49,491 bases of DNA, taken from positions 1 to 49,491 of IMG/VR virus record IMGVR_UViG_3300024298_000341; one strand, 5' to 3'. This stretch comes from a virus. How positions within the stretch are numbered: the first letter of the stretch is position 1; every line of letters starts with the position of its first letter. This document shows positions 4,759-26,921 of the stretch, piece by piece. The notes under the pieces are model-generated. The model saw only the letters and a program-made list of their open reading frames with translations, ran no database searches and was not told the DNA's origin. The position numbers and the translations under genes were made by a program.

Positions 4759-7700
4759 TTACTTGTTATAGATCCTAGAGGGAGTTTTATAATTTGAATT
4801 ATTTGTATATATCCCGATTTGCCCCCAGCCCCACAATCTATTTGATTTATCAATTGCATAACAGGCGCCATCAAATTCACTTGATATAACACCTATTTTA
4901 TAAAAAGAATTGTTTCCACAAATTTGTCTTGGCGACAAAACAGGAGCGTTTGTATTTAACCCTAAAAGACCGCATACGTTATATCCCCACGCCCACGCTT
5001 TTCCATTGGTGTCTAAAAACATATATCCACCATAGCTTCCTCCAAGAGCCACATCACAAAAATTATTATTTAAACTGCCAATTATTATTCTTTTAGGAGT
5101 CAAAATAGCTTCACTATTTGTAATGACACTTTGGTCATATCCCCATCCCCATAATTTATTATCTTTATCTATTGCTATAGATAAAGCATTCATAGCAAAT
5201 ATTTTACAAAATGTTTTATTTCCATAAACAGCAACTGGCGAGCTTCTACATACTGTAGAGCCATCTCCAACTGCTCCAAAGTAATTACCTCCCCAGCCCC
5301 AAGCTTTACCATTTTTGTCAATTGCGAGAACGTGATCATATCCAGCACATATTTGACAAAATGTTTTGTTTCCGCAAACTGCGACAGGAGTACGCCTACT
5401 AGTTATAGAATTATTTCCAAGCTGCCCCCTAGTATTTATGCCCCACGCCCAAGCTTTATTATATTTATCTATAGCGAGTGCAAATGCATCGCCGCTGAAT
5501 GTTGCATTGTTTCCTATAATTTTACAAAAAGTTTTACTGCCATATACCTGAACTGGAGTAGCCCGAGAAGTTATTGAATTATCTCCCAACTGCCCAAAGT
5601 CATTGGTCCCCCAAGCCCAAGCTTTACCAGCATTATCTATTATATAGTAACTTTCCAAAGAAAGACCAATTTCGCATACGGTTTTATTTCCATAAATATT
5701 AGTGAATCCAGAAAATTGAGCCAGACCATTTTTATCTAATGTAAGAGAAGTGTATGCATTAGCCGCTATTTTACAGAATGTTCTAGCGCTATTAACTAAA
5801 ATAGGAACACAATGGTAATGTTTATTACCGTTTCCTAAAGTTCCTGCTAAATTACTTCCCCAACTCCAAGCTGTATTGTTATTATCTATTCCAATAACAA
5901 AAGGACGGGGAATATCGTCCGCCGCAGTCCAACTCGCTGTAGTATATCCAATATAAATATTAGAAAATATTTTATTTCCACAAACTGCCACTGGCGTGCA
6001 TCTATTTATTATCGAATTATCTCCTAACTGTCCATATCCATTCGCTCCCCATCCCCAAGCTTTGCCATTTTTATCAATTGCAAAAGAGGTTCCAATTCCG
6101 TTAAATTCATCTCTTGCAAATATTTTACAAAATGTTTTATTTCCATAAACAGCTATTGGACTATTAGAATTGACAAAATCTGGAATGCTACTTCCGCTTC
6201 CAATATTATTAGCACCGTTATATCCCCAGCCCCAAGCCTTTCCATATTTATCTATCGCAAGCGTATAATTACCAGCTGAGGATATTTCGGAGAATGTTTT
6301 ATTACCGCCGACAGCAGTTGGATTTGGATAACTCCACGCCCAAGCTTTACCATTTTTGTCGATAAAATCCGAAGCATTAGATATTTTACAGAATGTCTTG
6401 TCTTGATAAACTGCTACTGGAGTTGAAGAGCATACTGCCGGAGAATTACTTAATTGCCCCCAAGCCCAAAGCTTACCGTTTTTATCTAAGCCTACTTTTC
6501 TATCAAAAGTCCCAGATATTTCACAAAATGTTTTATTGCCATATAAAGATGTTGGCAATGTGCGACTTGTTGTAGAGCCGTCTCCAATTTGACCATAATT
6601 GTTTGGCCCCCAACTCCAGACTTTACCTTTTTTGTCTATAGCGCTAAAGCCTCCTCCCGTAGATACTACTTTACAAAAAGTACGATTAGCGCCTATTATT
6701 TTTGTAGGAGTTGCCACTTGACCTTCTAAAGAATTAATTGTATTAACGCGGAAATTCTCTGACCAGTAAGTATTGACTCCCCAACCCCATAGTGTTCCAT
6801 TTTTATCGATAGCAAAAGACTGTCCAGCGTCTGATGCAGCCGCTTGAAAAAATAACCTCTCAACTGCAAAAGACTCATTAACTTTTGTTACATCAAGAAG
6901 CGGCGGTCCATAAGACCCAACCATACCAATATCTGCCCCTGCGCCGTTCTTAACCTCAACGCTCCAATTAGTTTCTACTAAAACCCTGTCTCCAATTCTT
7001 GCTCCAAGGTTATAAGACTCAAGCGTTAGGTTTTGTAACGACAACCCAAACTTTTTAACGTCTTCTAAATTAAAAAACTCAATCAACATTGATTTCTGAG
7101 TTCCACCTTCAGCGTGAAAAACCTTACTCAAATTTTCAGCTTGAAAATCATCAATCAGCGCCGACAAAGATAATGTGGCAACTGTTGGTCTTTGAATTTT
7201 TCTAATGTATGGATGATTATTGCCAAACCCATAAAGAGCCTTGCGTTCAAACTGAACAGAGAATTGCATACTCTGGAAGTTGTTGGCAATCGCGTCAAAG
7301 AAGCCAAAAGTAATTGGCGAAGTGCCGCCACCTGACTGAAAGTCTGGGGTAATCTTACATTTACTGTAAGGACATCCGCCATTAAATACTTCCTTTGCTT
7401 TTGGCAAATACCTTTCAGTTCTTGAGTTATTGACAAAGTTTAACGAGAAATTTTTATTTGCATCTTGAGCATTTTGGCCACTAACAAGGGTATTTACCGA
7501 TGGTAAGTACTTCGAAGTCGCATAATCTTGCACATTAGCATTTGCGCCCACAAAAGAACACGAAACAGTCGCCAGCTGATTAACTGCCACACTGATTTCA
7601 TAGTTAGTAATATAGGCGTTACCAATCGCGAGAATATTACTATTAACAATTCCTGTTTGTAAGTTCTGATCCATTCCATCATTCTGCGCGATACTGATAT

Positions 7701-8034
7701 AGAAATTACGGTCGCCAGTAGACGAAAGAATAGAATCGAATGGGTTACCAGTCGTACCTGTCGGTATATCCAGTCCAATATACTTATCATTCCAGCCATC
7801 ATTCAAATAGTATTGAATATTTAAATTAACATCCGGCGCAAGCTGAGTCTGCCTTGTAGCAAACGAATCGGAGCCGATTTGTTTCAGCGGAGTTCTTTCA
7901 ATATTGAAAGAGAAGTCGTAGCCCTGAATAAAATCAAGACGACTGATTCCGCTGCCCGTGTTCATCGCCTCCTCAAAAGCGCCAGAGGAACCAACAAACA
8001 TCATTTGCATTTCATATGAGATTGGTCTGCCCAT
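4759..8034 (-). CDS. Tail-tube-like protein fused to a 14-repeat RCC1 propeller
   Basis: This is a 1091-residue chimera. Residues 1 to about 375 resemble the tail-tube protein at 22852-24006: both have an R-N-F-[HY]-I segment followed by I-G-N-A-Y-I-T-N-Y and A-V-x-x-L-x-T-V-S (here 137-157). From about residue 390 to the end there are 14 RCC1-like repeats of about 50 residues with the core I-D-K-N-G-K-A-W-G-W-G and, in many, G-Q-L-G-D. Fourteen repeats fit two seven-bladed beta-propellers. Most repeats also carry K-T-F-C-K-I. The gene starts with a one-base TAATG overlap after the gpM-like gene, so it belongs to the tape-measure operon. The likely role is a distal tail or tube-decorating protein presenting a propeller to the host. 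The fold calls are firm; the function is inferred. Confidence 0.85.
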   Translation of the reverse strand: MGRPISYEMQMMFVGSSGAFEEAMNTGSGISRLDFIQGYDFSFNIERTPLKQIGSDSFATRQTQLAPDVNLNIQYYLNDGWNDKYIGLDIPTGTTGNPFDSILSSTGDRNFYISIAQNDGMDQNLQTGIVNSNILAIGNAYITNYEISVAVNQLATVSCSFVGANANVQDYATSKYLPSVNTLVSGQNAQDANKNFSLNFVNNSRTERYLPKAKEVFNGGCPYSKCKITPDFQSGGGTSPITFGFFDAIANNFQSMQFSVQFERKALYGFGNNHPYIRKIQRPTVATLSLSALIDDFQAENLSKVFHAEGGTQKSMLIEFFNLEDVKKFGLSLQNLTLESYNLGARIGDRVLVETNWSVEVKNGAGADIGMVGSYGPPLLDVTKVNESFAVERLFFQAAASDAGQSFAIDKNGTLWGWGVNTYWSENFRVNTINSLEGQVATPTKIIGANRTFCKVVSTGGGFSAIDKKGKVWSWGPNNYGQIGDGSTTSRTLPTSLYGNKTFCEISGTFDRKVGLDKNGKLWAWGQLSNSPAVCSSTPVAVYQDKTFCKISNASDFIDKNGKAWAWSYPNPTAVGGNKTFSEISSAGNYTLAIDKYGKAWGWGYNGANNIGSGSSIPDFVNSNSPIAVYGNKTFCKIFARDEFNGIGTSFAIDKNGKAWGWGANGYGQLGDNSIINRCTPVAVCGNKIFSNIYIGYTTASWTAADDIPRPFVIGIDNNNTAWSWGSNLAGTLGNGNKHYHCVPILVNSARTFCKIAANAYTSLTLDKNGLAQFSGFTNIYGNKTVCEIGLSLESYYIIDNAGKAWAWGTNDFGQLGDNSITSRATPVQVYGSKTFCKIIGNNATFSGDAFALAIDKYNKAWAWGINTRGQLGNNSITSRRTPVAVCGNKTFCQICAGYDHVLAIDKNGKAWGWGGNYFGAVGDGSTVCRSSPVAVYGNKTFCKIFAMNALSIAIDKDNKLWGWGYDQSVITNSEAILTPKRIIIGSLNNNFCDVALGGSYGGYMFLDTNGKAWAWGYNVCGLLGLNTNAPVLSPRQICGNNSFYKIGVISSEFDGACYAIDKSNRLWGWGQIGIYTNNSNYKTPSRIYNK
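4780..6870 (-). repeat. RCC1 repeat array, 14 units (copy 1)
   Basis: Fourteen degenerate units of roughly 150 bases encode the RCC1 repeats of the tail-tube/RCC1 fusion. The plus strand shows the recurring string CCATTTTTATC (complement of the Asp-Lys-Asn-Gly codons) with variants. Confidence 0.85.
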
Positions 8035-8996: not shown

Positions 8997-9766
8997 TAGA
9001 CAAATCCTTGATAAGTAAGCGTTAACGAAAGCTCGTCAGTTGCGGACGAATTGATCGTTTCACTTATTAACTCCATATTGTTCATTGAAAATGTCGCCAG
9101 AGACCCTATTGTTATATTAATATTCTGCTTGTTGGAATCAACAATATAATCTAAAACTCTTTTCGACTCATAATCATCAACGCCAAGCGTGAACTGGGCG
9201 GTTGCCCTAAATGGGCGCAATGTCACAACATCCATTGGAGTTGATCCAGTTGGATGATAAAAAGCCTGTCTTGGGCACTCAAGTGAGTATGTAAAAGCTT
9301 CGATTCTGTTTGTTCCAGTACCATCGCATCGAATAGCTATATCTCTAGGACGGACGACTGATAGTGCGCCTGTTTGGCTAGCCCCCGAACTTGCGACACC
9401 AGTTCCTACATTACCAAAGATTGTGAAATCGGCGCTTAGAGATGGAAAGTTTCCAACGGCGCAGGAAACAGAATAATTATTAAGATACGCGCGATTAAAT
9501 GTAAAATTCTTATTATTGTAAAATAAACCGCCGCTGACCTGTCCAGCCCCCGTAAAATTTAAAAAGAAGTCTGCTGGCGAAAGGTACTTCTGAACACTCA
9601 GGTTTGACTGCGGCGCGTTATTGGTAAAAGTAGTAAATTTATTAGCGCCGATAACATTGATGTGCTCAATCGGCAAAGAATAGCCGAAATTAACATCGTT
9701 GACGCCAAATATTTTGACGCCGCTGATATAAAGACTGTTTTCATAGCTTGATACTGATGATTTCAT
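8996..9766 (-). CDS. Tail-tube-like protein (third paralogue)
   Basis: The 256-residue protein shares with the other two tail-tube-like proteins of this window the segment F-N-R-A-Y-L-N-N-Y-S-V-S-C-A-V (90-104), then F-P-S-L-S-A-D-F, and later V-R-P-R-D-I-A-I. The major tube protein at 22852-24006 has L-R-P-G-D-I-T-V at the equivalent place. It starts by a one-base overlap with the tape-measure stop codon and ends in a one-base overlap with the gpM-like gene. It is likely a structural ring at the tail tip or a distal-tail protein built on the tube fold. The paralogy rests on short shared motifs and equal order, not on an alignment score. Confidence 0.65.
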   Translation of the reverse strand: MKSSVSSYENSLYISGVKIFGVNDVNFGYSLPIEHINVIGANKFTTFTNNAPQSNLSVQKYLSPADFFLNFTGAGQVSGGLFYNNKNFTFNRAYLNNYSVSCAVGNFPSLSADFTIFGNVGTGVASSGASQTGALSVVRPRDIAIRCDGTGTNRIEAFTYSLECPRQAFYHPTGSTPMDVVTLRPFRATAQFTLGVDDYESKRVLDYIVDSNKQNINITIGSLATFSMNNMELISETINSSATDELSLTLTYQGFV

Positions 9767-12700
9767 TATCTACTTCTTAATGATCCGCCTAGTCTCTTTT
9801 CCTCATTGATTGTTTGGATGACGACTTGTTTGATCTGCTCGCTCATCTTCTTGTAGTCAATGCCGCCCTGTTTGGTATCACCCTGAGTCTGGGTATCTGA
9901 TGTTCCGCCAGTTACATTGATATTGATGCTAACATTTGTAGCTCCTGCGGCTTTAGAGTCAGAACTTGTCGCCGCTTTCTCAGCGAAGCTTGGCTCTGCG
10001 GTGGAAACTTGACCGCCATCAGCAAATCTTGGAGCGCGGCCTTGATTGATCGAATCAAAGAATTGTTTACCGTATTTCTTGGTTGCTTGGCGATTCATTA
10101 CATACTCGCCACCCATAAGAAGTGCGGGAATATCGTCTGTTGGACCGCCAGCGTTGTAACGCTTGATCATTCCACCATAAGCCTTTGTTGGGCCAAAGCT
10201 ATAATTGAATGCTGGTGGAGATTGAAAACTAAAAGGCTTCGCATTTGTCAAAAATTGAGTTTTGCCAGAAACTTGGTCCATTAAACCTAATCCAGTAGCG
10301 GAACCCTTTCCAGCCGCTGCCGCACCACTAAATAGACTTCCTAATTTTCCAACCCCAGCATTTATTCCATAACTTAAAGCAGCGGAGGCTACTGTTCCAA
10401 CAAGCTGTTTCTGAAATGCTTTTCTTTCAGCAGTTCTGTAAGCTTCTCTTTCGGCCATTATATTCATAGCCTGCTCTTGAGCGCTGCGAATCTCCTGATT
10501 TATGGTGTCATCCTCTCTCATCAAAGCATAAGCAGAAAGTCTTGAGCTTTGATCTTCAAGGTTGGCAAAAGCGGTTGTTGCGCCGCCAGCTAATACATCT
10601 GTTGCGCCGCTTGTTGTTGTTTGTTTAGCAAAAGCGGTTAAATCCTTATAGCCTGAAATTTCAGTTTGGCCACGAATACCGGGTAGGAAAATGCCACCAG
10701 CTGCAAACTTAGGAGCTTCTCCTGAATTTAGCTTTTGTAGATTAGATGCGCCATACTTTTTAACAGAAGACTTGCGAATTACATATTCACCCTCACTCAA
10801 CATTGCTGGCACATCATCCTTATATCCGCTACCGCCAGTCACAAGACCACCAGTTGCGTAACCCTTTACATAGCCACCCTTTGCCGCGCCTGTTGGCAGA
10901 ATAGAAGCTACAATCTGTCTTGAAGCACTTTGTAAAAATGCGCTCTGAAGGCTCTTTAGGAAGTTAAGGGCAACATTTCTTAATGCGCCACCAAGATCAT
11001 CTGCCTGATTAAGAGCAGCCTGCATCGCTTCCGCCATTCCATCCGCAAACAGTTTTGGTGTCTGATTACCAATAATTTGCTGGAATGTTTCGGCCTGATC
11101 GAGAAGAACGCCTCGTTGAATTTGTAAATTTTGCTGAATGGAGTTGTCTCTCCCACTAAGAATATTAGTACTCTCTCTTAGATCAACTTCTGTTCTTCCA
11201 GCCATTCTTCTTTCAAAAACCGAAGCTCTTGCCTGCTGCTCAAAACTAGACTGTACTCCAGTTTGTGTTAAAGCTCGGCCTTGCACTATTGTTTTTGTTA
11301 TTTCCTGAATGTTTGCAGTTCCAGCGGAAGTAATTTGATTTTCAATCGCTTTTGTCAGATTGATTTCTGAAAGCGCTGCGGAGGCTTTTCTTCTAGCTTC
11401 AATTAACTGTTCAGCTTCAAGATTTAACTGCTCTTCTAATCGTATGGCTTGCTGAGTTACACTGATCTTTTTATTCTGCTCTCTTAAAAGCTCAGTCTTT
11501 CTTTGGATATCTCTGCTTTCACCTTTCCAATTTTGCTGTATAAGAGCAATTTGAACTTGTAATTCATCATCTTTATCAGACTCGGATTTTGTCAATTTTG
11601 ATTGAGCACTTCTTAATTTAGCTGCAACAGTTTCAGTTTGGATACTGCCTTTGTAGGCTTGATTATAGGCGTCGATCAAGTCTGTTTCTGCATTTAATAA
11701 ATTATTATCTGTATTAAGCTTTAGTTCTGCATTTTTAGCGTCAGTTTTTAACTGAAATACTCTTTTATCAGTTTCTTCACTAAGATTTGAAGCTGCAATT
11801 GCCGCTGCCTGATCGATTCCAGTTAATTCACGAATTGATTTTGCGTGACCGTTGGTAATTAGGACTCTTTGTAAATCAGCTTTTTTCTTTTCTGGAAGCA
11901 GGGCTATTTCTTCCGCATTAGCAATTTCCAAGTCTTGTATGGAAGTAATTAATTTTTCTCTTTGAATATTTAACTGTTCTTCAACTGCCGCAGCTTCATC
12001 AGATGTAATATCTTGAGTTTCGCTTCCGTCATTGCGGCTATTCAAGTACGCCAGTCTTGACCTATTCTGTTTGTATGCGCTTTGTAATTTTCTAAGTTCT
12101 GTATTAGCTTCTGAATTTGTTGCGGCGAAATCAATCTGCGTATTTGTTAATATTCTAGTCTGATCGGCATTCGCTTTAGTTTCATAAGCTGATCTTACTA
12201 AAGCTAAAAACTGCTCTTTTGAACCCAGTATTAAGTTATTTAATTCTGGAGGAACGCCAACAAGTCCTTCTGTAAATTTTGACCAAACTGAACCAAAAAC
12301 GTCATCAATTTTTACTGTACCATCTTTTAAAGCTTGCTCGTTAGTTTTAAGCGCATTGGCATATCCATCAATTAAGCCTTGTAATTTACTGGTATCTAAA
12401 TTGCCTAAAAAGTCTTGAACCTGTTGAGTTCCTCCAAGCACAGATTCTTTAGCCCCAGCGCCTAAATTTTTTCTTAAATCAAGCGCGATCTGCGCCACAG
12501 TTTTATTATATTCCGCTTCTGCTTTTTCTTTATCTAAGGCTGCTTTTTGGGATATTGTGTAAGATTCTGTTCTAAACTGTTTCTCTCTTTCTAGTGCAGC
12601 AGACAAGCCTTCAATTCTTAAAGACTCTTCATTATATTTTTCATTTATTTTTAACTGTGTTTGAAAAATAGACTCAAGCGCTTTTTGTCTAGACAAAAGT

Positions 12701-15700
12701 AGTTCATTATCCCTAGTCAAAAGCGCCTGTTGAACTTTATCTAAGACTTGACCTTCTTGTCTAATTGAAAGTCTTTGTTTCTCATTTTTAATTTGATCGT
12801 TTAAAAGATCAATGACATTTTCTTGCAATAAATTTTCATTTACTGCTGTGCGCTCAACACCAGGTTGAACCCCTCCCATAAAATCTTGACTAGCTAATCC
12901 TTGTTCAGTTGTCTTTGTGATCACCCCTGCAAAAATTTTATTAATTGCGTCCGTATCAACTCCAGTGATTTTGCCCTCTTGATCTCTTGTTATATTTCCA
13001 GTAGCAGACAGAACAGCGCTTATTTGTTTTATCAAGTCCTTAGAAATATCTGGAAATCCAACAGATTGTGTACTAGTTATTGCTTTTTCTACAAGATCTG
13101 AAACTTTTACAGCCTCTTGTTTTTGTTTACCTTCAGCACGACCTTCTGTTAATTTTGCTAAAATATTTTCTGGCGTGAGTTTTTGACCAGTTCTTTCGGC
13201 CTCTCTAGCCAGTTTTGTTAAAGCCTCGCTAGCTTTTTCGGCGGGAGTTTTTTGAGCTTCAAAAATTCTACTGATCAAAGGAGCGGCGGAAGCTAAAGCC
13301 GTCAACGAACCAAGAAATATTCTAAGAGGTATGTTTACGCTTCCCGCTAAAGATGCGAATGTTGCAAGTCCAGAAAGACCGGCGTTTACACCTTCTAAAG
13401 CATTTGCCGCGTTACTATTTTCTTCTGTGAACGCCTGAACTGCTGATGTAGCTCCAACTATTGCGGTCTGAAGAACAAGGAATTTGCCAATATCAATTTT
13501 TTTTGTTTCATCATTTGCTTCCTGTTTCTGATCTCCTTGTTTTTGAGTTTGAACCCCGTAATCAAAACCTTCACCACCTGTGTACCGTTCTGCACTTATT
13601 GGATTTGGAGACTTGCCTAAAATTTCTTTAATTTGTTTTGTACTAAGATCTGCAAAATTTGGTACAAACCCTCTACTTCCCATAGCCGCGCGCATTCCTC
13701 TTTCTCTAAAATCATTTGGAATCTTGCCATTTGGCTCGTCTCTGGTGTTGATAACGGCGAGACCATTTGGGTTTTTTGAGTTCTTTAATCTTTCATCCTG
13801 CGTCACGCGCACGCGCGCGGGCGGCACGCCAGCACCAACTTCTCTATTAACAGCTTCTTTTAATGGGTCATTATCAGCAAAGTTCGGAACATATCCCAGC
13901 GAAGCCTTTGTTCCTTTTACTCGCTGTGGGGCCAAAAGCTTTGCCGCATACTGATCAGGAGTAAACGTATTTATTTTCGGCATCAGCGATTTTACTGCTT
14001 GCAAGTTCGCTGGATCATTATCTACAAAATCAATATCGCCTGTAGCAATTTTCGGCGCACGCTCTTTAAAAAACAACGCTTTTTTCTGGGCAGCAGATGG
14101 ATCGATTTTAGGTTTTACTCTAGTATTTCTTTCACCCTCTGGCTTTTTCATCTCTTCTGCAAACTTGGGGTTATCGACCTTGTACTGCTCTTCAGAGAAC
14201 TCTCTGCCCAAAGCGAAAACACCATTAACATTAAAACCTAAACCCTTCAAAGAGGATTCAATACCAGGTTGATAATCATTCCATCTTGCCGTTGCAAGTT
14301 TGAAAGGCTTCTTCGATTGCAGAAGTTTTTGACCAAACGGAGTCAAAAGCTTCATTTGAGCATCGCGAGCTTGGCGCTCCTGCTCAGTCATTTGGTCTTC
14401 TGGAATATTTTTAATTAATGCTTTTTGAGCATTAAAATCAGTTGCCTTGCCAAGCTGTTGTCCAAAAATAGTATAATCGTAATCAACAAAAAGATCTGCA
14501 AAGTTTGGAATGTAGCCCGCTGCGGCATTCAAAGATCTTGGCCCAACCTTCTTAATCGAGCGAGTTTTGCCGCCAACCGCTCTTACTGCTGGCCAAGGAG
14601 TTGGATCAAAAGGCGTTGGATTATTAAATTTTGCAAGAGCTTCTGGAGTGTTGGACTCTGGTCCAACGCCACCAGTTGTTGCTTTTTGCAAGGCAATGAA
14701 GTCATCAGCTAAAGCTGGATTTGCCAGTACTGTTGAAGTGAAAGCCTCTCTCTTGCCCGGCAATCTTGAAATACCAATCTGTGCATTTGGTCCATAAACT
14801 CTTCTAGCTGAAGTTAGAATTCTCTTCTTTAATTCATCCCCTAAACCCTTTGGAGCAGATGGCTTGGCTTCAAGATTTACATTAGATGCAGCAAGAAATG
14901 CGTCAGCGGTATCAAGGTCATAGAACTGTCCAGATGGGGCCAAGATAGACTGCTGTTTCTTTTGTGCAAAATTTGGAATATAGCCTTCTGCTGCGGCAGT
15001 CTTGACAGTTTTGTATGGTTTATAAAGTTGAGCGGCAACAATTTGATCAGCTAGTTTTCTTCCTGTTGAACCGGGGCTTCCTGAAATCTTTGCATCTACA
15101 AATTGCTCGCCACCGCCAATACCAAATAATTCTTTAAGAAATGGATTAACTGGGAAATCTAACCTGTTATTTGAATCTTCTTTTTGTGCTTTTTCTATTC
15201 TTTGTCCAACTTGAGTATCTAAAGCTGCCCTAATAGAAGACTCAAATATACCGCCTCCTAAAGTAGAGATTGCCGAGACGGCGCCTTCTGATTCTGTAAA
15301 GGATGTGCGGATAAAATTTTCATCATAATTAGTTTTAACTGAACGGCCAGGCATCTTTTTCGCATACTCATCTGAATATTTTGTAGCCCATTTTTTCGCT
15401 ATCTCTATGCCAGCTTTTTCAACATCAGCTTCAATCAAGGTTTGTGTTCCGCTTTTCTTCAAAGCCTGTCCTTCAAACGCCTGCTCATTCAAGCCGTAAG
15501 TATTGTACCTTACATTAGTTATAAGACTATTTTCTGGAGGAAGGTATACGTCTTCTTTTGTTTGGAAGCCCCAAGGATTTTTCTTGAGATAATTAGTCAT
15601 TGTTTCCTGATTAGCTTGGTCAGGAACAATCATGCCTGCTATACCCTGAGCGCTAACAAGCGCTCTTGGTCCCGTATATGTTTTTCTATCAACCTTTCCG

Positions 15701-18700
15701 CCCTTTATTGTCGCTGGCTTTTTATCGGCAAAATTTGGAACATATCCCTTGGCGCCGCGAATCATCTCAAAGTTTTTAGCAGAGCCTTTTACTTTTGAAA
15801 TAAAATCAAACTGATTAAGCGGAGCAAACATCGATCCTGCAATTTGCTTCTTGCTTCTGAGATCGCCTTGTTTTGGACCCTCTGCGATTCTTCCAGTTCT
15901 TCTGGACAGAATGTCCATATTGCCAGTGTACAAATAAGAGATCTTTCCTCCAGATGCATTTACCGCATCAGAAATTTGCTGGAAGTTTTTAGAAACGCCG
16001 CCATCTTTTGTTCTTGCCGCGCCTGAAAGAATATCGATCTCACTGGCGTCTGTTAACTGGGCAATATTGGTTATAAATGAACCAAGAGACTCCCCGTAAG
16101 TTGACTTACCAGATCCCGCTGGTCCAACTATTAAATTCTTCTTGACGCGAGAAGCTAAAATAGCCTTTAGTAGGTTATTTTTATCTGCATCAACTCTGTC
16201 AGCGTCATAAACGTAGCGCGCAAAATTTGGAATGTAGCCCCCCGATGCATTTTGACCCGTTGGAGAAATGATATGCTTTCCAATGAATGACGAAATACTA
16301 CTTGTTGACGAACCTAATTTTATGTCTCCAAATTTAGATTTGAACCCAAATCTGCTTTTAAAAGCGCCAGATTGTTCTGCTGGCAAATCCCAAGTTTTGC
16401 TATTTCTTCCCTCTATCGTTCCAGTAATTTTTTTGAACAAAATATCCTCTAATATATTTCCAGACCTAAATGCTGCTGGCCCCTGAACTTGAAGTTCTGT
16501 TTTGACGGCAGCTTTAAGATTATTGTCAACACTACCTTTTGTTTCTGGCAAAATAGACTGGATAATATCCTCAATATCCTTATCTATTTTAGCTTTTGGA
16601 TTAGCTTGAATTTTGTTTTTAGTTTCACGAATTTTTTGAACTAAATCATCTCTTTGCAAGCTTTTATTAATTTGTACAAATTCAATTGATCCTTGGTCAG
16701 GAACAATTTTAGCATTTTCTGCGATTGGTCCTAGTTTTTCAGTTAATTTCTGCTGCGCTGAAGATTGTAATTTAGAAAATCTTCCTACCGGATCAATTGA
16801 TGCATCCAAAGTTAAATATGCAGACCTGCGTATTCCATCAAGATCTACATAGTCTATAGGCTCTTGATCTTTTTTAACTTTAGCCTTTGCTTGATCAAAA
16901 ACATTGAATTTTTTAGCCGCAAAATTTGGTACAAACCCATTAGCAGGCACAAATCCACCAGAAGCTGTAATCTTTTTAGCTCCGGGCGGTAGACCATACT
17001 CCTTCGCCATATCCTGATTAAAGATAGCCGTACCGCTACCACCAGCATAATTAGGCACAATATATTCGCTGGTATTTGCTACCATCGTGCCACGCTTACC
17101 GCCGCCAAACGAGAAGTTTGGAATCTCTACGACTTTAGAAGAAGGGCTGGCCCCACCAACTCCACGACGCACATCTTTCGCCTCTTCTGCTGGCAGATAA
17201 CCTCCCGCCGCTCTCTTTTTAATCGTTCCAGATGTAGCGCTAAGTCCAGCGGCTTGTAGTGCAGGGGCAACATTTGCCGCGATGCTTTGTACTTGCTGAA
17301 GCGCCGCTAACTGCCTATTGTAAACAGAAAGTAAATACTCTTCTTGCTTTCTGCGATCTCCGCTTAGAGACAGGATTGTCGCCATTACTTGCTGATCCTT
17401 GATCAGCGTATTAACAACAGCCTGTTCCAAAGCTTGGCGCTCCCTGACTTCCTTGTTGATTCCCAAGATAGTTTTTAGTGACTCAGTGCCGAATTGGGCA
17501 ATGTCTTTTGTCAGCTTAACGAATATCGCAAGAAGAAGAGGAATGCCGATCTTGAAAAATACTCCACTAAGTCCAGAAATTAAACCTTTAGCAATAGTGC
17601 CGCCAATTCCTTCGGAATCGATAACGTCATTAATCCCAGTAAGAATGTTGTCAAAAAAGTTTAAAAGCGACTTAAGGCTGTCAGTAACGCCAATTCTGCC
17701 AAGAGTATCAGCAAGCTGAGCGGCTGAATTTGTAACTCTTGTGATAACTGCATCTAGAGTTTGATTGAGTTCAATCTGACGCTGGTATGCCTCGCTTTGC
17801 GCGCCCGCAGAAACATCTCTCGCCTCTCTAAACTTGCTCGCTGTTGAGCCCAAGTCGTCAACAAGCGCTGTCAAAACGTTGATGTTGTACTTGCTAGCAA
17901 TCGCCTCAAGAACTTCGATTCTCTTGGTTTCGCTAAGGGTATTAATTTTCCCAGCCAATTCCTCAAGAAGACTTACAACCGGCCTCAGTCTACCTTCGGC
18001 ATCAAATGAATAGATACCAATGCTTTGCAATGCTTTGATAGTTTCATCTGATCTGATTCTGGTGAAAATTGTCTTGAATGCGTTACCAATTACCGCGCCA
18101 CCACGCGCAGTTCTTTCTTGTGCAATTGTGACGATGGCATTTAATTCGTCAAAGCTAACGCCAACTTCTTGAGCAATCGAGCCAGCACGGGACAAGCCTT
18201 TAGCCAAGTCTTCAGCAGAGACTGCGAATTTAGTATCTACGGCAACCAGCTTATTCAGAATCTCGCTAGTTGTAATTCCAGTTGCTCCGAAAGAGTTTGC
18301 CGCAGCCGTGAGTACATCCACGGCTTCAGCAGCGCTTAAAGTTGTGAAACGAGTAAGAGTAAGGGCGTCCTGAGTTCTTTTTAGCGTTTCTTCAAGACCC
18401 AAGCCCTGTCTAGAGAACTCTAGTGCCGCCTCGGAGGCTGTCTGGAAAGATTGCGAGGTAGTTTTGGCAATCTCAAAAAGCGCTCTGGAAAATGGTTCAA
18501 GTTCCTGAGTAGTTTTTCCGCTAATAATGGCAATATTAGCCAAGCTTTTTTCAACTTCAATTGTTGTTTTAACAAGCGTAGCAAAAGCATTTTGTACGCC
18601 ATTGATGATACCTACAGAAGCGCCGAATGCGATAACACGCGCATTTGATGCGGCAATTGACTTTTCGAACTCTGTTGCCAGACCGCTTACTCTACCAAGA

Positions 18701-18834
18701 GGCTGGGCTAGTCTTTTAAAGGAACCAGGATCAACAGACGCAGAAAGAGTCAGCGGTCCAGCTTTTTTGGCCGCCGCCTCGATAGAGGCTTCTAAACCCG
18801 ACTGGACTACAGGTACTGTGATTCCTTTTGCCAT
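9766..18834 (-). CDS. Tape measure protein with embedded enzyme-like domains
   Basis: The 3022 residues give the longest gene here. Residues 30-400 match the TP901 tape-measure core (L-T-A-A-A-N-S-F-G near 215, then S-R-A-G-S-I-A-Q-E-V-G and a G-N-A-F-K-T-I-F segment). A hydrophobic helix lies near 415-445. Residues 636-1732 carry seven G-[FY]-[IV]-P-N-F-A motifs with inserted segments: PD-(D/E)XK-like (about 795-840), P-loop (G-P-A-G-S-G-K-S-T near 910), second PD-(D/E)XK-like (about 1195-1250), an unknown one (1293-1440), HAD-like (D-Y-D-Y-T near 1452, T-A-R near 1515, V-D-N-D near 1606) and a short unknown one. A second hydrophobic stretch lies near 1800-1860, coiled coil at about 2045-2510, and two D-D-[VI]-P-A-x-L-x-x-G-E-Y-V repeats near 2670 and 2900. 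The family sets tail length and travels out with the DNA. The embedded domains are unusual and their role unknown. Confidence 0.92.
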   Translation of the reverse strand: MAKGITVPVVQSGLEASIEAAAKKAGPLTLSASVDPGSFKRLAQPLGRVSGLATEFEKSIAASNARVIAFGASVGIINGVQNAFATLVKTTIEVEKSLANIAIISGKTTQELEPFSRALFEIAKTTSQSFQTASEAALEFSRQGLGLEETLKRTQDALTLTRFTTLSAAEAVDVLTAAANSFGATGITTSEILNKLVAVDTKFAVSAEDLAKGLSRAGSIAQEVGVSFDELNAIVTIAQERTARGGAVIGNAFKTIFTRIRSDETIKALQSIGIYSFDAEGRLRPVVSLLEELAGKINTLSETKRIEVLEAIASKYNINVLTALVDDLGSTASKFREARDVSAGAQSEAYQRQIELNQTLDAVITRVTNSAAQLADTLGRIGVTDSLKSLLNFFDNILTGINDVIDSEGIGGTIAKGLISGLSGVFFKIGIPLLLAIFVKLTKDIAQFGTESLKTILGINKEVRERQALEQAVVNTLIKDQQVMATILSLSGDRRKQEEYLLSVYNRQLAALQQVQSIAANVAPALQAAGLSATSGTIKKRAAGGYLPAEEAKDVRRGVGGASPSSKVVEIPNFSFGGGKRGTMVANTSEYIVPNYAGGSGTAIFNQDMAKEYGLPPGAKKITASGGFVPANGFVPNFAAKKFNVFDQAKAKVKKDQEPIDYVDLDGIRRSAYLTLDASIDPVGRFSKLQSSAQQKLTEKLGPIAENAKIVPDQGSIEFVQINKSLQRDDLVQKIRETKNKIQANPKAKIDKDIEDIIQSILPETKGSVDNNLKAAVKTELQVQGPAAFRSGNILEDILFKKITGTIEGRNSKTWDLPAEQSGAFKSRFGFKSKFGDIKLGSSTSSISSFIGKHIISPTGQNASGGYIPNFARYVYDADRVDADKNNLLKAILASRVKKNLIVGPAGSGKSTYGESLGSFITNIAQLTDASEIDILSGAARTKDGGVSKNFQQISDAVNASGGKISYLYTGNMDILSRRTGRIAEGPKQGDLRSKKQIAGSMFAPLNQFDFISKVKGSAKNFEMIRGAKGYVPNFADKKPATIKGGKVDRKTYTGPRALVSAQGIAGMIVPDQANQETMTNYLKKNPWGFQTKEDVYLPPENSLITNVRYNTYGLNEQAFEGQALKKSGTQTLIEADVEKAGIEIAKKWATKYSDEYAKKMPGRSVKTNYDENFIRTSFTESEGAVSAISTLGGGIFESSIRAALDTQVGQRIEKAQKEDSNNRLDFPVNPFLKELFGIGGGEQFVDAKISGSPGSTGRKLADQIVAAQLYKPYKTVKTAAAEGYIPNFAQKKQQSILAPSGQFYDLDTADAFLAASNVNLEAKPSAPKGLGDELKKRILTSARRVYGPNAQIGISRLPGKREAFTSTVLANPALADDFIALQKATTGGVGPESNTPEALAKFNNPTPFDPTPWPAVRAVGGKTRSIKKVGPRSLNAAAGYIPNFADLFVDYDYTIFGQQLGKATDFNAQKALIKNIPEDQMTEQERQARDAQMKLLTPFGQKLLQSKKPFKLATARWNDYQPGIESSLKGLGFNVNGVFALGREFSEEQYKVDNPKFAEEMKKPEGERNTRVKPKIDPSAAQKKALFFKERAPKIATGDIDFVDNDPANLQAVKSLMPKINTFTPDQYAAKLLAPQRVKGTKASLGYVPNFADNDPLKEAVNREVGAGVPPARVRVTQDERLKNSKNPNGLAVINTRDEPNGKIPNDFRERGMRAAMGSRGFVPNFADLSTKQIKEILGKSPNPISAERYTGGEGFDYGVQTQKQGDQKQEANDETKKIDIGKFLVLQTAIVGATSAVQAFTEENSNAANALEGVNAGLSGLATFASLAGSVNIPLRIFLGSLTALASAAPLISRIFEAQKTPAEKASEALTKLAREAERTGQKLTPENILAKLTEGRAEGKQKQEAVKVSDLVEKAITSTQSVGFPDISKDLIKQISAVLSATGNITRDQEGKITGVDTDAINKIFAGVITKTTEQGLASQDFMGGVQPGVERTAVNENLLQENVIDLLNDQIKNEKQRLSIRQEGQVLDKVQQALLTRDNELLLSRQKALESIFQTQLKINEKYNEESLRIEGLSAALEREKQFRTESYTISQKAALDKEKAEAEYNKTVAQIALDLRKNLGAGAKESVLGGTQQVQDFLGNLDTSKLQGLIDGYANALKTNEQALKDGTVKIDDVFGSVWSKFTEGLVGVPPELNNLILGSKEQFLALVRSAYETKANADQTRILTNTQIDFAATNSEANTELRKLQSAYKQNRSRLAYLNSRNDGSETQDITSDEAAAVEEQLNIQREKLITSIQDLEIANAEEIALLPEKKKADLQRVLITNGHAKSIRELTGIDQAAAIAASNLSEETDKRVFQLKTDAKNAELKLNTDNNLLNAETDLIDAYNQAYKGSIQTETVAAKLRSAQSKLTKSESDKDDELQVQIALIQQNWKGESRDIQRKTELLREQNKKISVTQQAIRLEEQLNLEAEQLIEARRKASAALSEINLTKAIENQITSAGTANIQEITKTIVQGRALTQTGVQSSFEQQARASVFERRMAGRTEVDLRESTNILSGRDNSIQQNLQIQRGVLLDQAETFQQIIGNQTPKLFADGMAEAMQAALNQADDLGGALRNVALNFLKSLQSAFLQSASRQIVASILPTGAAKGGYVKGYATGGLVTGGSGYKDDVPAMLSEGEYVIRKSSVKKYGASNLQKLNSGEAPKFAAGGIFLPGIRGQTEISGYKDLTAFAKQTTTSGATDVLAGGATTAFANLEDQSSRLSAYALMREDDTINQEIRSAQEQAMNIMAEREAYRTAERKAFQKQLVGTVASAALSYGINAGVGKLGSLFSGAAAAGKGSATGLGLMDQVSGKTQFLTNAKPFSFQSPPAFNYSFGPTKAYGGMIKRYNAGGPTDDIPALLMGGEYVMNRQATKKYGKQFFDSINQGRAPRFADGGQVSTAEPSFAEKAATSSDSKAAGATNVSININVTGGTSDTQTQGDTKQGGIDYKKMSEQIKQVVIQTINEEKRLGGSLRSR
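13651..16945 (-). repeat. Seven dispersed GYIPNFA-type motifs inside the tape measure
   Basis: The plus-strand complement, close to GCAAAATTTGGAAT, recurs at about 13652, 13877, 14496, 14964, 15728, 16220 and 16920. It encodes G-[FY]-[IV]-P-N-F-A, often preceded by Gly or Ala runs and followed by Asp or Lys. Spacing is irregular (about 75 to 250 residues). Weaker relatives, I-P-N-F-S and V-P-N-Y-A, lie at about 17110 and 17045. Confidence 0.9.
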
Positions 18835-20917: not shown

Positions 20918-21367
20918 ATGGCATCTTACCTCTCAGACGCGCAGAAAAACTTTATCAATGAAGTGATTGATGATGTGTTTGATACCTTCTCTAGGCAGAT
21001 AACCGTATACTCTAACCCCAGAGAGACTGTGATCTCCACTTCAGCTAGTTATAATTATTTTTACGATAGAGACGTTCCAGCTGTAGAAAACAAGGAGTTC
21101 ACAACTGTTTCCAATACATTTCAGGCTAAGATTAAGTACTTAGATCAGGCCAAAGCCCCAGTACCCGGAGCCGATACTCAGCAAAAAATAGACTATCCTG
21201 CTGGCAGCGTTAAAATCAAAGTGCCAGCTTCTGCCTACACTGTTCTAAAAGAAGCTCGTCGTGTCGAATTTGATGGTCGTAGATATGCAATCTCTTCTGA
21301 TTCAAAGCCTTATGGAATGTTTGGGCCAAGATATTATTCATTCATCCTATCCCCAATTAACGAGTAA
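20918..21367 (+). CDS. Putative head-closure / neck protein
   Basis: The 149-residue protein has an N-terminal helix (L-S-D-A-Q-K-N-F-I-N-E-V-I-D-D-V), then a beta-rich body with a strand-loop ending in V-E-F-D-G-R-R-Y-A-I-S-S-D-S-K-P and a final Y-Y-S-F-I-L-S strand. Size, strand content and the x-V-x-F-D-G-x-x-Y pattern suit head-closure proteins such as SPP1 gp16, but I cannot prove this. It opens the plus-strand island of four genes that ends with the major tail tube, which supports a neck role. It is followed after two bases by the next gene. Confidence 0.6.
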   Translation: MASYLSDAQKNFINEVIDDVFDTFSRQITVYSNPRETVISTSASYNYFYDRDVPAVENKEFTTVSNTFQAKIKYLDQAKAPVPGADTQQKIDYPAGSVKIKVPASAYTVLKEARRVEFDGRRYAISSDSKPYGMFGPRYYSFILSPINE

Positions 21368-24056: not shown

Positions 24057-24596
24057 TTAGTAGTAAAAGTCTTCTTTTACCACTTCTGGCTTTTTTCTTA
24101 AAGCCGCAATTCCTTGACCTTCTGTCAGCATCTCAACCAGATCGTAATACTTCAGAGCCATCTGATAATCAGAGCGATTGAAGTCATGGATGAATACCAG
24201 CACATCCTGATCAATAATATCCCAAAGATACTTGGCGCAATACTTACGCGCGCGACCATCAATCAGCGCCTTGGTGAACTTTAGCTTCTTGGTTGCAGGC
24301 AAATGAATGTAGTCCTTGAACTGTTCGTATCTGCAAGGCTTTGGATCTGGAGAGTGAGCGGCTTGATAGATCAGTTCGATATTCTGGATATCGTAAGCAT
24401 TAACGATCTTTTGGATATTTTTAATCCAGTCGATGTCGTGCTCGATGGAAATTACCTTCTTCACCAATCCAGAAAAATAAACAGTGCTATTGCCACTACC
24501 AAACTCAAGCAACGTGTCATTTTTATTTAGATACTTTTCAATAAACTTGTACTCATGTTCGTGCATGAGCGGGCGGAAGGAACTAAATTTATTCAT
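24057..24596 (-). CDS. SAM-dependent methyltransferase (class I fold)
   Basis: The 179-residue protein shows motif I as L-L-E-F-G-S-G-N-S-T (about 30-39), the acidic end of strand 2 as S-I-E-H-D (50-54) and a strand-4 segment V-L-V-F-I-H-D-F (131-138). This is a short Rossmann methyltransferase with no extra target domain, so the substrate is unknown; small-molecule or glycan O-methylation is as likely as protein. It is the last gene of a leftward cassette after a sulfotransferase and a double glycosyltransferase. Its ATG overlaps the stop of the glycosyltransferase gene (ATGA), showing co-expression. Its own stop touches the terminator. Confidence 0.8.
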   Translation of the reverse strand: MNKFSSFRPLMHEHEYKFIEKYLNKNDTLLEFGSGNSTVYFSGLVKKVISIEHDIDWIKNIQKIVNAYDIQNIELIYQAAHSPDPKPCRYEQFKDYIHLPATKKLKFTKALIDGRARKYCAKYLWDIIDQDVLVFIHDFNRSDYQMALKYYDLVEMLTEGQGIAALRKKPEVVKEDFYY

Positions 24597-26191
24597 CGCT
24601 TGTTATCGTAAATGTCCATAACTTCCTTAACTACGGTATCGGCATCTGGGAGATAATCCCAGAGAGTCTTACCCTTGGGGATAAGATCGATAGTATCGTG
24701 CTTGAACTCAGTGTGACGGATTTCTAGACCATCGAGCAACAGATCTTTACGGAGAGCCTTGGTTTTGTAAGACTGAGTACCGTTTCTATATGGAAGGATG
24801 TGATCTTCATGCTTACAGGTTGGGAATGTCACAATCCAATTATCAAAAGCACCAGCAATATGAAGCGGTGATGAATCATTCGTTACAAGGCATCTAGACA
24901 GTGAAATTAAGGCAAATAATTGCCCAAGAGTGGTCAGATCGCGGAGATCGTAGCCGTCCTGTGGAACTTTGATTGGTAGATAGCCCTGTTTCTCGTCAAT
25001 GCTCTTGCCAATCAGCACAACTGTAAGCTTTTCCGACAGTTTATCCACAATAGACTGCCACCACTCAACTGGCAAAGTCTTTGAGGGCCACCAGCGACCA
25101 GCGTGAACCACAACAGTAGGCTTTTCAGGCTTCTTGTCTTTAAATAAGTCGATAACATAACTGACATCCTCTGCATCTAGCTTGAGTTGAATCGTCTTGT
25201 CAGTGTGTGGGATAGTACGCTTGATCATTGACATCGAGGCAAAGTCTGTTGGGTGGAACAGAACGTGTGACATCTTGTGTTCTGACTGCTCATCGTCAGG
25301 GCAAGTATGCATTGTCAAGATAGCGTCATTAATTCCCTTCCATTGATCATAATTAACCACGGGGCAGCTAAGGTGCTCAAAGAGACGAGGGAAGTGCGAT
25401 ACAACAGTGATATTAGCGTCAGGATAAAGCTTCTGAGTATAGCGGATAGCAGGCTCTGAACATAGCTGGTCGCCCATTCCTGCTGTTACGCTAATAAGGA
25501 TGTTTCGCTTATACTTGTAGCCCTCCTCCTTGTCTTTTTCCCATTGAAGGATATCCTTGTAGATAACGCCCATTTGCATATCTTTTGGCGCACCAGCGTA
25601 GTGAACGATATACGAGTTTAGGCGCGAGATGCCGCAGAACTTATCCAAGATATCCATACGATTAAAGTCGTAGTGGAGGTCAAACATATCAACCTTATCA
25701 TTTAAAATTCGCAGATTGATGAATGGCTGATCAGTTTCTACGAAATCAATGCCTCGCGGAAGTCTGAAGATCTGCTTGTGGATTCGGGAGATAACCATTA
25801 CGCCCGAATTGTAGAACTTGCCGTTCCACTTCTTCAATGGCTCCTTGTAGTACTCCGAGGCTTGTTCCAGATACTCAAACCTTGGCGCATAACGGCCCTC
25901 ATTGAACATTCCCAGCTTAGTCTCTGGGACAACTTCAAACAAGTTGGGGCAATCATCTCTGATTAAAATATCAATATCAAGATAAATGATTCGCTTGTAC
26001 TGATTTAAGAGTTCGCCAATCAGGAACTTATTCCACTTTTGGGTAATGTAGTATTTGTTGAACTCTGTGACGTTTAGAAAATCGGCGCCGATTTTCTCCG
26101 CATACTTTTGGATAGAAGGTAGCGTGAGCTTTGCTACTTCGTTGTAATAATCGCCAATCGAGATGGTTAAAACTAAGTTATCCTTTTTCAT
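24593..26191 (-). CDS. Two-domain glycosyltransferase, GT8-like plus GT9-like
   Basis: With the start chosen at 26191 the protein has 532 residues. The frame also allows an ATG 39 bases upstream (26230), but the chosen start leaves a 14-base overlap with the sulfotransferase and avoids an implausible basic-hydrophobic leader. The N-terminal domain (1-230) is GT8/glycogenin-like: Y-L-D-I-D-I-L with the D-x-D metal site at 72-74 and F-Y-N-S-G-V-M-V-I at 126-134. The C-terminal domain (231-532) is GT9/heptosyltransferase-like: I-L-I-S-V-T-A-G-M-G-D-Q-L at 231-243, H-A-G-R-W-W-P-S-K near 363-371 and T-N-D-S-S-P-L-H-I-A-G-A at 437-448. Both active-site signatures look intact. The sugars and acceptor cannot be read from the sequence. 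The fusion may add two sugars in sequence. Confidence 0.88.
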   Translation of the reverse strand: MKKDNLVLTISIGDYYNEVAKLTLPSIQKYAEKIGADFLNVTEFNKYYITQKWNKFLIGELLNQYKRIIYLDIDILIRDDCPNLFEVVPETKLGMFNEGRYAPRFEYLEQASEYYKEPLKKWNGKFYNSGVMVISRIHKQIFRLPRGIDFVETDQPFINLRILNDKVDMFDLHYDFNRMDILDKFCGISRLNSYIVHYAGAPKDMQMGVIYKDILQWEKDKEEGYKYKRNILISVTAGMGDQLCSEPAIRYTQKLYPDANITVVSHFPRLFEHLSCPVVNYDQWKGINDAILTMHTCPDDEQSEHKMSHVLFHPTDFASMSMIKRTIPHTDKTIQLKLDAEDVSYVIDLFKDKKPEKPTVVVHAGRWWPSKTLPVEWWQSIVDKLSEKLTVVLIGKSIDEKQGYLPIKVPQDGYDLRDLTTLGQLFALISLSRCLVTNDSSPLHIAGAFDNWIVTFPTCKHEDHILPYRNGTQSYKTKALRKDLLLDGLEIRHTEFKHDTIDLIPKGKTLWDYLPDADTVVKEVMDIYDNKR

Positions 26192-26921
26192 TCGTCTCTT
26201 TAATATTATAAAGAGACAGCAAATCTTCAATCTTCGCGGCTAATTTTTCTGACATAACTTCCTTATGTCCGCCGATCTTTCCTTTGACGGGGCCGAAGTT
26301 TGGTAAAGACTTGTCGTGAACATCTGGGATCTTATCCGCAATCTTTTTTTCAATCCAGCTTTCAATTCTTTGTTTTTGATGCTGGTAATCTGTAAGCATA
26401 TCCTCATAATTAACTACAAGCATTTTATCTTTGTGCTTGAGCCAGCCGCTGGTATGCAAGAACCATCGATGAATATAATTTTCTGGTTCAATAATTATAT
26501 GTGGATCAGGTGCATAAGGCTGTAGAAACTTTCTGCCAATATCATCAGGCTTGGAAAACACCCATTCTTCAAACACTGGAAAATCTTTTTGTTCTGGCTT
26601 TGGGATAAATTTATAATAGCTATTTAATACATCCTTGATATCGCGCTTAACGTAAATAACCCTATACTTGCTAAATAAAAAATCTAAATAATCCTTCATA
26701 AACTCTACTTGGTGATGAGATTTATTAACCGAGTCCAAGAAACAGGCATTGCACATAATATCCTTATAAGTTATATGCTTATAGCCTTTTAAATTAAAAT
26801 CTATATTATTTGGCGTATAACCAACGGTCAAAAATTCACCTTTTTTTTCGTAGTTTATCGAATTGATAACAAGATGTGTGCCAGAGCGTTCGTGAGTTAT
26901 AACAAGAACTGGTTTAGTCAT
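26178..26921 (-). CDS. PAPS-dependent sulfotransferase
   Basis: The 247-residue protein has the three sulfotransferase signatures in order. The 5'-phosphosulfate loop is E-R-S-G-T-H-L at residues 11-17. The 3'-phosphate site is R-D-I-K-D-V-L-N-S-Y-Y at 93-103. A late G-P-V-K-G-K-I-G-G-H-K at 210-220 corresponds to the R-K-G-x-x-G-x-W-K region. Length and order match the Sulfotransfer_1 family; such enzymes move sulfate from PAPS to a hydroxyl or amine. There is no signal peptide, so it acts in the cytoplasm on a small molecule, nascent glycan or virion protein. It starts two bases after the RCC1 gene stop and overlaps the glycosyltransferase by 14 bases, so a shared pathway with that enzyme is likely. 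Confidence 0.87.
   Translation of the reverse strand: MTKPVLVITHERSGTHLVINSINYEKKGEFLTVGYTPNNIDFNLKGYKHITYKDIMCNACFLDSVNKSHHQVEFMKDYLDFLFSKYRVIYVKRDIKDVLNSYYKFIPKPEQKDFPVFEEWVFSKPDDIGRKFLQPYAPDPHIIIEPENYIHRWFLHTSGWLKHKDKMLVVNYEDMLTDYQHQKQRIESWIEKKIADKIPDVHDKSLPNFGPVKGKIGGHKEVMSEKLAAKIEDLLSLYNIKETNEKG

Follow-up and report, generated by a model that had tools for sequence, protein, structure and literature searches.

Exchangeable, often enzyme-like modules delimited by a repeated motif inside a phage tail tape measure protein

The 49.5-kb virus record IMGVR_UViG_3300024298_000341 (49,491 nucleotides, the whole of which is called the window here) carries an open reading frame (ORF) of 3022 residues, 9766..18834 on the minus strand, which is a phage tail tape measure protein (TMP), as judged from a PhageMin_Tail match (PF10145, 97.7 bits against a Pfam cut-off of 33.2) and from matches to several PHROG tape-measure families (phrog_4211 at 4.9e-48). 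An earlier sequence-only reading had already named the ORF a tape measure, correctly by these searches, and had proposed that its middle part is a swappable cassette of cargo. By comparing the protein with its relatives, we show here that this middle part is a string of recombining modules with a repeated motif between them, many of the modules being enzyme-like and those measured being under purifying selection. The comparison also suggests that the string is probably a polymorphic cassette of effector cargo, with modules that would act in the manner of the "polyvalent proteins" that are predicted to be injected, although in a vehicle that is new.

The repeated motif and the exchange of the modules between its copies

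Seven exact copies of G[FY][IV]PNFA were found in the TMP, while shuffling its sequence 1000 times gave none. From the N-terminal side, and all on the minus strand, they are GFVPNFA at residues 633-639 (16918..16938), GYIPNFA at 866-872 (16219..16239), GYVPNFA at 1030-1036 (15727..15747), GYIPNFA at 1284-1290 (14965..14985) and again at 1440-1446 (14497..14517), GYVPNFA at 1647-1653 (13876..13896) and GFVPNFA at 1722-1728 (13651..13671). All seven matches to the PNFA pattern at the DNA level in the virus record fall within this gene. The same seven copies had been reported in the sequence-only reading, with numbers 3 to 4 higher, corresponding to about the P of each motif, and the six segments between them are, as stated there, unlike each other (226, 157, 247, 149, 200 and 68 residues). 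Since the spacing of the motif is irregular and depends on the modules, a tube-register repeat was rejected, again in line with that reading. Small residues usually stand just before the motif.

A search with the first 600 residues of the TMP gave 142 relatives, of which 80 loci with 41 to 100% identity were kept (L numbers below denote loci of this and of the larger set). The nearest of these, L008, was 100% identical over 21.8 kb and represents the same virus, and it was therefore not taken as an independent relative. Sixty-one distinct TMPs were long enough for cutting at the motifs. A larger set comprised 273 non-identical ORFs, to which the motif scans alone contributed 224, the homology search 48 and a genome contig 1. 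The three DNA motif scans of viral contigs were a sample, and all catalogue counts drawn from them are to be read as "at least". ORFs from the scans were required to have at least two motifs (9 of 115 were dropped in one scan), TMPs shorter than 640 residues and ORFs contained in another were removed, many ORFs were cut by locus ends, and degenerate forms of the motif were allowed when segments were cut out.

In the larger set, the strict motif was present in 626 copies, distributed over 268 of the 273 ORFs, compared to 0 copies in one shuffle of all ORFs. Because 214 of the 224 ORFs found by motif scans alone resembled the window TMP in its N-terminal part, its C-terminal part or a conserved linker described below (199 of them in the N- or C-terminal part), we consider the motif a mark of this TMP family. 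Modules 2 and 3 of the window had no match in 50,697 phage records at an E value of 0.01, and no near DNA match was found among isolated phages. For the best 40 of the 93 phage records that matched the TMP, the match covered the N-terminal region only.

Cutting at the motifs resulted in 737 segments of 25 to 700 residues, which fell into 141 single-linkage clusters (83 singletons); 126 sequence clusters had all members of at least 90 residues. The comparison of homologues, which the sequence-only reading had itself named as the test of its proposal, supported a swappable cassette between conserved flanks. The TMPs of L009 and L010 were 98 to 99% identical in the N-terminal part and 93 to 98% in the C-terminal part, whereas the first three modules of L009 shared 22 to 30% identity with L010, the first aligning over 18 residues only. 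The reverse was seen for L009 and L025, where the N-terminal parts were 77% identical and the C-terminal part gave 34%, 31% and 58%, while four shared modules were 98, 97, 83 and 98% identical. More generally, in 30 of the 54 TMP pairs with N-terminal parts at least 90% identical, each side had a module without a full-length counterpart in the other (some of these ORFs are cut), and 31 pairs of modules shared 85% identity or more and exceeded the N-terminal parts of the same proteins by 15 percentage points or more. Modules also changed places: a 131-residue module opened the cassette in L018 and stood fifth in L009, the P-loop module preceded the PD-(D/E)XK-like module in most TMPs and followed it in L045 and L050, and a relative of window module 4 in L015, 80% identical, stood at a different place in the order. 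Assembly chimeras are an unlikely source of such differences, as the L010 TMP was found letter for letter in five contigs (L010-L013 and L029).

The modules are not only exchanged but also appear to be maintained. After random sampling of the three largest clusters, and keeping pairs with 70 to 98.5% identity and a synonymous divergence (dS) of 0.05 to 2, the ratio of nonsynonymous to synonymous divergence (dN/dS) was 0.044 to 0.352 in 91 pairs from eight module clusters, and 0.035 to 0.311 in 87 pairs of the linker. These low values point to purifying selection on the modules measured and on the linker.

Codon usage gave information on the level at which the motif itself is kept. Codon identity among copies within a TMP was 56%, compared to 50% expected from codon usage (209 ORFs), suggesting that the motif is conserved as protein and is not mainly a DNA recombination site; the latter was mostly rejected. 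In a predicted model of two window modules (mean predicted local distance difference test score, pLDDT, 66), the motif fell in low-confidence linkers. Conservation at the protein level together with this position fits a cleavage or docking signal, and the motif most likely serves all modules as one signal at the level of the protein. It would be either a site where a protease frees the modules or a docking site that holds these unlike modules in the tail.

Enzyme-like features of the modules

Four enzyme signatures had been claimed for the window segments. All four were found again by eye (two E..D..DxK patterns, a Walker A motif and a HAD-like pattern), but none of the five larger segments had a Pfam match above the cut-off. 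Module 1 (residues 640-865; 16240..16917, on the minus strand like all modules) is PD-(D/E)XK-like by eye (NILEDI..WDLP..GDIKLG), and a relative in L349 keeps the same residues, also by eye. Module 2 (residues 873-1029; 15748..16218) has the Walker A sequence GPAGSGKST, and its family had 17 members in one comparison and 22 in another, of 143 sequences. GK[ST] was present in 16 of 16 sequences of the P-loop alignment (A1), with the first G replaced by A in one of them. This module gave weak AAA matches below the Pfam cut-off, a sequence search of the PDB with A1 returned mostly general P-loop entries, and the two-module model retrieved P-loop kinase and GTPase entries up to Z 6.2, which is within the usual noise range according to the tool's own note. 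Module 3 (residues 1037-1283; 14986..15726) has the E..D..DxK pattern of the commonest cargo group (alignments A2 and A5), and the PDB sequence search with A2 returned unrelated entries only, e.g., lectins. Module 4 (residues 1291-1439; 14518..14964) had no Pfam match. Module 5 (residues 1447-1646; 13897..14496) has a HAD-like DxDxT...ATxR...K...VDND pattern, of which the residues D, D, T, T, R, K and D were invariant in 6 of 6 sequences (A3, five close relatives), and A3 had neither a Pfam nor a PDB sequence match.

The sixth segment is the conserved linker (residues 1654-1721; 13672..13875; cluster C1), which is usually the last segment before the C-terminal part. Its cluster held 101 segments from 100 of 143 sequences, and a linker of 48 to 78 residues was usually kept at the last junction. 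By eye, it contains an NP.GLAV.NTRDEP-like stretch; the linker had no Pfam match in the whole-protein scan.

The commonest cargo pattern across the family was G..[FY]E ... D ... [DE]xK. A regular expression for this PD-(D/E)XK-like pattern matched 189 of the 737 segments, compared to 9.2 in shuffles, and a module with E..D..[D/E]xK was present in 72 of 86 complete-looking TMPs. An alignment of two clusters (A5; 61 of the 64 non-redundant rows, from 74) had a mean column identity of 14%, and a D and a K were its sole invariant columns over the 61 rows. The residue before xK was D or E in 61 of 61, and the E column held E in 56 and D in 5. The structure of the L056 member was predicted with a pLDDT of 89.8. 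Structure prediction did not, however, bear out the PD-(D/E)XK-like assignment of the sequence-only reading, as no fold match was obtained with this model (Foldseek against PDB, best E 0.095; VIA, best Z 4.3; BFVD, best E 0.04). No PD-(D/E)XK entry was among the matches listed, which does not in itself exclude the fold. Given a confident model with no fold match, we refer to the module as PD-(D/E)XK-like and not as a proven nuclease fold.

One representative per cluster, its longest sequence and of no less than 80 residues, was compared with Pfam at E ≤0.01 (133 representatives), with E values reported without family cut-offs or member names. Nineteen families were matched, among them GNAT (four members, best 7.2e-8), PolyA_pol (9.4e-15), a HIGH-type nucleotidyltransferase region (3.4e-8), a GHKL ATPase (3.8e-5, below the cut-off) and, weakly, ParB_N (0.0049). 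Two matches in individual relatives exceeded the family cut-offs, namely SNase in L183 (35.2 bits against 21), an ORF that also has a PD-(D/E)XK-like segment by eye, and GNAT in L138 (22.1 bits against 20.7). Segments with GNAT, PolyA, HIGH or SNase patterns were present in TMP-similar ORFs, e.g., L391, L253, L283, L364, L240, L183 and L211; the GNAT pattern was in L391, L253 and L283, each with TMP similarity, and the PolyA and HIGH patterns were in L364 and L240, both similar to the N-terminal part of the TMP. Several kinds of signature can share one chain, in L183 as well as in the window TMP with its P-loop, HAD-like and PD-(D/E)XK-like signatures. In L364 (a TMP of 3548 residues), segment 3 is PolyA_pol/CCA-adding-like by eye and by pattern, i.e., an RNA nucleotidyltransferase-like domain appears to lie inside a tape measure.

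Counts of patterns in the 737 segments were compared with those in shuffles. SNase was found in 2 segments against 0, GNAT in 5 against 0, HAD in 11 against 1.4, ParB in 2 against 0.1, ART in 3 against 0.1 and a strict HEXXH in 6 against 0, while a nucleotidyltransferase pattern was found in 0 of the 737 segments. Segment 2 of L222, L300 and L234 combined a GHKL-type pattern with HEXXH (TVFHEAAHQ). The reading by eye covered part of the cluster representatives. Together, these results only partly sustain the earlier claim that the modules are enzymes: a few are recognised by hidden Markov models in relatives and more by conserved residues of catalytic type, but most representatives lack a family.

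The kinds of domain found also bear on where the cargo might act. Known enzymes in TMPs are wall hydrolases, as described for T5 pb2 (PMC10038345) and TM4 (PMC1796659), and the modules could, like these muralytic domains, act outside the cytoplasm on the envelope (periplasm or membrane) during penetration. We regard this as unlikely, since no lysozyme, transglycosylase or wall peptidase was among the 19 Pfam families of the 133 representatives and such domains as can be recognised belong to types whose substrates are nucleic acids, nucleotides or proteins, with the HEXXH segments as possible exceptions.

Predicted delivery and competing explanations

A cargo cassette in a tape measure could work as follows. 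The conserved N- and C-terminal parts of the TMP would stay, while recombination adds, removes, reorders and replaces modules and leaves G[FY][IV]PNFA in place at each junction. The cassette would be carried in the tail, and the TMP would leave the tail with or ahead of the DNA at infection. Hydrophobic segments of the TMP may then insert into the host envelope. In the window TMP, a Kyte-Doolittle scan gave a membrane-span-like segment ahead of the cassette (residues 417-443; 17506..17586, minus strand) and a hydrophobic segment past it (residues 1839-1857; 13264..13320, minus strand), and hydrophobic stretches flanked the cassette on both sides in 7 of 8 TMPs scanned, L018 having one before the cassette only. 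The modules between these segments would enter the cell, and their early targets would be DNA of the host or of competitors, proteins or nucleotide signals. There are precedents for single steps: the TMP of JBD30 has been proposed to exit from the tail and to make a channel (PMC11445458), the T5 TMP is described as expelled and cleaved at a site that separates a hydrophobic stretch from the enzyme domain (PMC10038345), and TMP-related effectors of injection systems have been reported in bacteria, one with a C-terminal endonuclease (PMC11126660; PMC13277306).

It could instead be argued that the modules are passive spacers, i.e., globular or disordered filler with a role in adjusting the length of the tail and none inside the cell. 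They sit in a ruler protein, the cassette span varied from 270 to 1816 residues across the 86 complete-looking TMPs, and the coiled region on the C-terminal side varies too. However, near-identical flanks tolerate very different cassette lengths, the low dN/dS of the pairs measured indicates selection on the modules, the two columns that stay invariant in A5 are a D and a K of catalytic type, and SNase, GNAT and nucleotidyltransferase domains are recognisable. A spacer role alone therefore seems improbable.

A third possibility is that PD-(D/E)XK-like modules are selfish islands that spread by cutting alleles with no cassette or a different one, in the manner of free-standing homing endonucleases, with the other modules hitch-hiking. 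That this module is the commonest cargo fits such an explanation, and so does its distribution on a tree of 104 N-terminal parts, where single PD-(D/E)XK-like types changed nearly as often as shuffled labels (C2, 25 changes against 23-32 in shuffles, mean 28.1; C3, 22 against 19-31, mean 26.7; C5, 13 against 13-17, mean 16.1; C11, 5 against 4-5, mean 4.9). On the other hand, the P-loop, HAD-like and 131-residue modules are exchanged too. These three followed the tree more closely, with 4 changes for the HAD-like module (5-6 in shuffles) and 5 for the 131-residue one (6-7); the values for the P-loop module are given below. Furthermore, the nuclease would have to be made within a structural protein, and nothing pointed to an intein or an intron, without a dedicated test. 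We judge this explanation, too, to have little chance of being correct.

Several results nevertheless weigh against an exchangeable effector cassette. On the tree, the 40 architectures required at least 64 changes, below all values for shuffled labels (77-86, mean 82.8), which indicates some inheritance of cassettes; the combined PD-(D/E)XK-like slot (39 changes against 42-54) and the P-loop module (9 against 16-20) were likewise below all shuffles. In the larger set, the PD-(D/E)XK-like types chained into one cluster of 174 segments, and some changes of type may therefore reflect fast divergence instead of replacement. Four TMP-homologous ORFs (L070, L083, L084 and L087) had fewer than two motifs and no such cassette. 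As for enzymatic activity, Pfam gave no match at E 0.01 for 106 or more of the 133 representatives, to which the missing Pfam matches of the window segments and the missing fold match of the L056 model can be added. Two of the GNAT-like ORFs, L133 and L138, are incomplete and no similarity to the TMP was detected in them, the ART-like and kinase-like readings by eye had no supporting Pfam match, and Walker A (50 against 27.9), kinase (4 against 1.8) and GHKL (3 against 1.4) patterns were barely above shuffles; all regular expressions were written after looking at the sequences. Among 20 window proteins scanned, no peptidase that could cut the motif was above its Pfam cut-off, and an S41 N-terminal match at 20918-21367 was below threshold. 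Finally, delivery, cleavage and activity of the modules are predictions.

With these points taken into account, the effector cassette is still the reading that we favour. A more specific version can be put forward only tentatively, with chances somewhat short of even: in a large uncultured lineage of tailed phages, the TMP might serve as a recombining magazine, in which the motif joins a wide range of effectors, mostly a fast-changing PD-(D/E)XK-like nuclease, and which the tail would inject as a first weapon against the host or rival phages, the modules being freed or held at the motif.

The principle of exchangeable activities on phage proteins is known, and we rate the vehicle, the tape measure, as new. 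The closest parallel is with the polyvalent proteins of Iyer et al. (2017; PMC5512222), described as polypeptides with many unlike catalytic domains that are predicted to be injected with the DNA. GNAT and nucleotidyltransferase domains are shared with them and, by weaker evidence, ParB-like, kinase-like, ART-like and metallopeptidase-like ones. They differ in that the vehicle here is the TMP, one motif delimits the modules and the PD-(D/E)XK-like slot dominates; zincin-type peptidases, the hub in that account, are seldom found in the cassettes, where 6 of 737 segments have a strict HEXXH. The words "tape measure" occur 0 times in the main text of that paper. In the MuF polymorphic toxins of temperate phages (PMC5576092), exchangeable activity domains are likewise placed on a phage protein, and delivery by the phage has been proposed, but the protein is described as belonging to the DNA-packaging module and having a variable C-terminal toxic domain (PMC12226406), while the cassette here is internal, has multiple modules and lies in a tail protein. 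No MuF family was found in Pfam and PHROG scans of the whole TMP at E values up to 1.

The contractile injection system effectors Tme and Sle1 (PMC11126660; PMC13277306) resemble the cassette as TMP-like proteins in a tail machine with a variable activity domain, an endonuclease in one case. Their effector domain is C-terminal, in bacterial injection systems, whereas the cassette is internal (residues 633-1728 of 3022) and the virus record around it includes a terminase and tail-fibre genes. The muralytic TMPs of T5 and TM4 (PMC10038345; PMC1796659) and the SPbeta-like YomI, annotated as a putative transglycosylase, also have an enzyme domain built into the tape measure, in T5 with cleavage next to it (PMC10038345). 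Theirs is a wall-degrading domain, in contrast to the many unlike modules here, with no wall-degrading family among the 133 representatives. No description of the cassette was found in the open PubMed Central literature (titles and starts of abstracts; subscription journals and preprints largely lie outside it), nor did any article there combine "tape measure protein" with GYIPNFA or GYVPNFA.

A survey of mosaicism in phage proteins listed tape measures among the classes that show signs of mosaicism, and it was unable to confirm any genuine recent case in them (PMC10684548). The near-identical flanks with swapped modules, and the reverse, provide clear cases of such mosaicism. If the modules are delivered, the tail lumen would be a general, re-loadable route of protein delivery, the cassette would amount to a catalogue of early-infection effectors, most without a known family, and the motif would be a candidate handle by which proteins of choice could be loaded into tails. 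The practical question of what such a phage injects besides its DNA also becomes testable.

The tape measure gene and its surroundings

The conserved N-terminal PhageMin_Tail domain of the TMP spans residues 123-312 (17899..18468, minus strand). The coiled region after the cassette (residues 1729-2600) is also highly variable, with 31 to 36% identity between L008 and L009 or L010, while the N-terminal part and the C-terminal end of these proteins are 84 to 95% identical. Two genes downstream of the TMP, with one 256-residue gene between, a minor tail protein (PF05939; 8034..8996, minus strand) lends support to a tail-module context. A terminase gene is present in the same virus record. One relative of the TMP (L207) lies in a contig binned as a metagenome-assembled genome, assigned to Flavobacteriales, which is too little to name a host.

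Some other genes, all on the minus strand, were also noted. A 1925-residue ORF at 32860-38637 had many matches to tail-fibre and collagen-like PHROG families. Next to the terminase, an ORF at 47274-48236 had weak matches to a C2H2 zinc finger, a homing-endonuclease repeat and an ERCC4 nuclease. Two proteins with RCC1-type repeats lie in the tail region, at 4759-8034 (PF25390, 5.1e-111) and 26924-29128 (phrog_4219, 4.7e-86). In the pair of ORFs at 24593-26230 and 26178-26921, GT8 and GT9 glycosyltransferase domains are combined in one, and the other encodes a sulfotransferase (PF00685, 3.1e-12).

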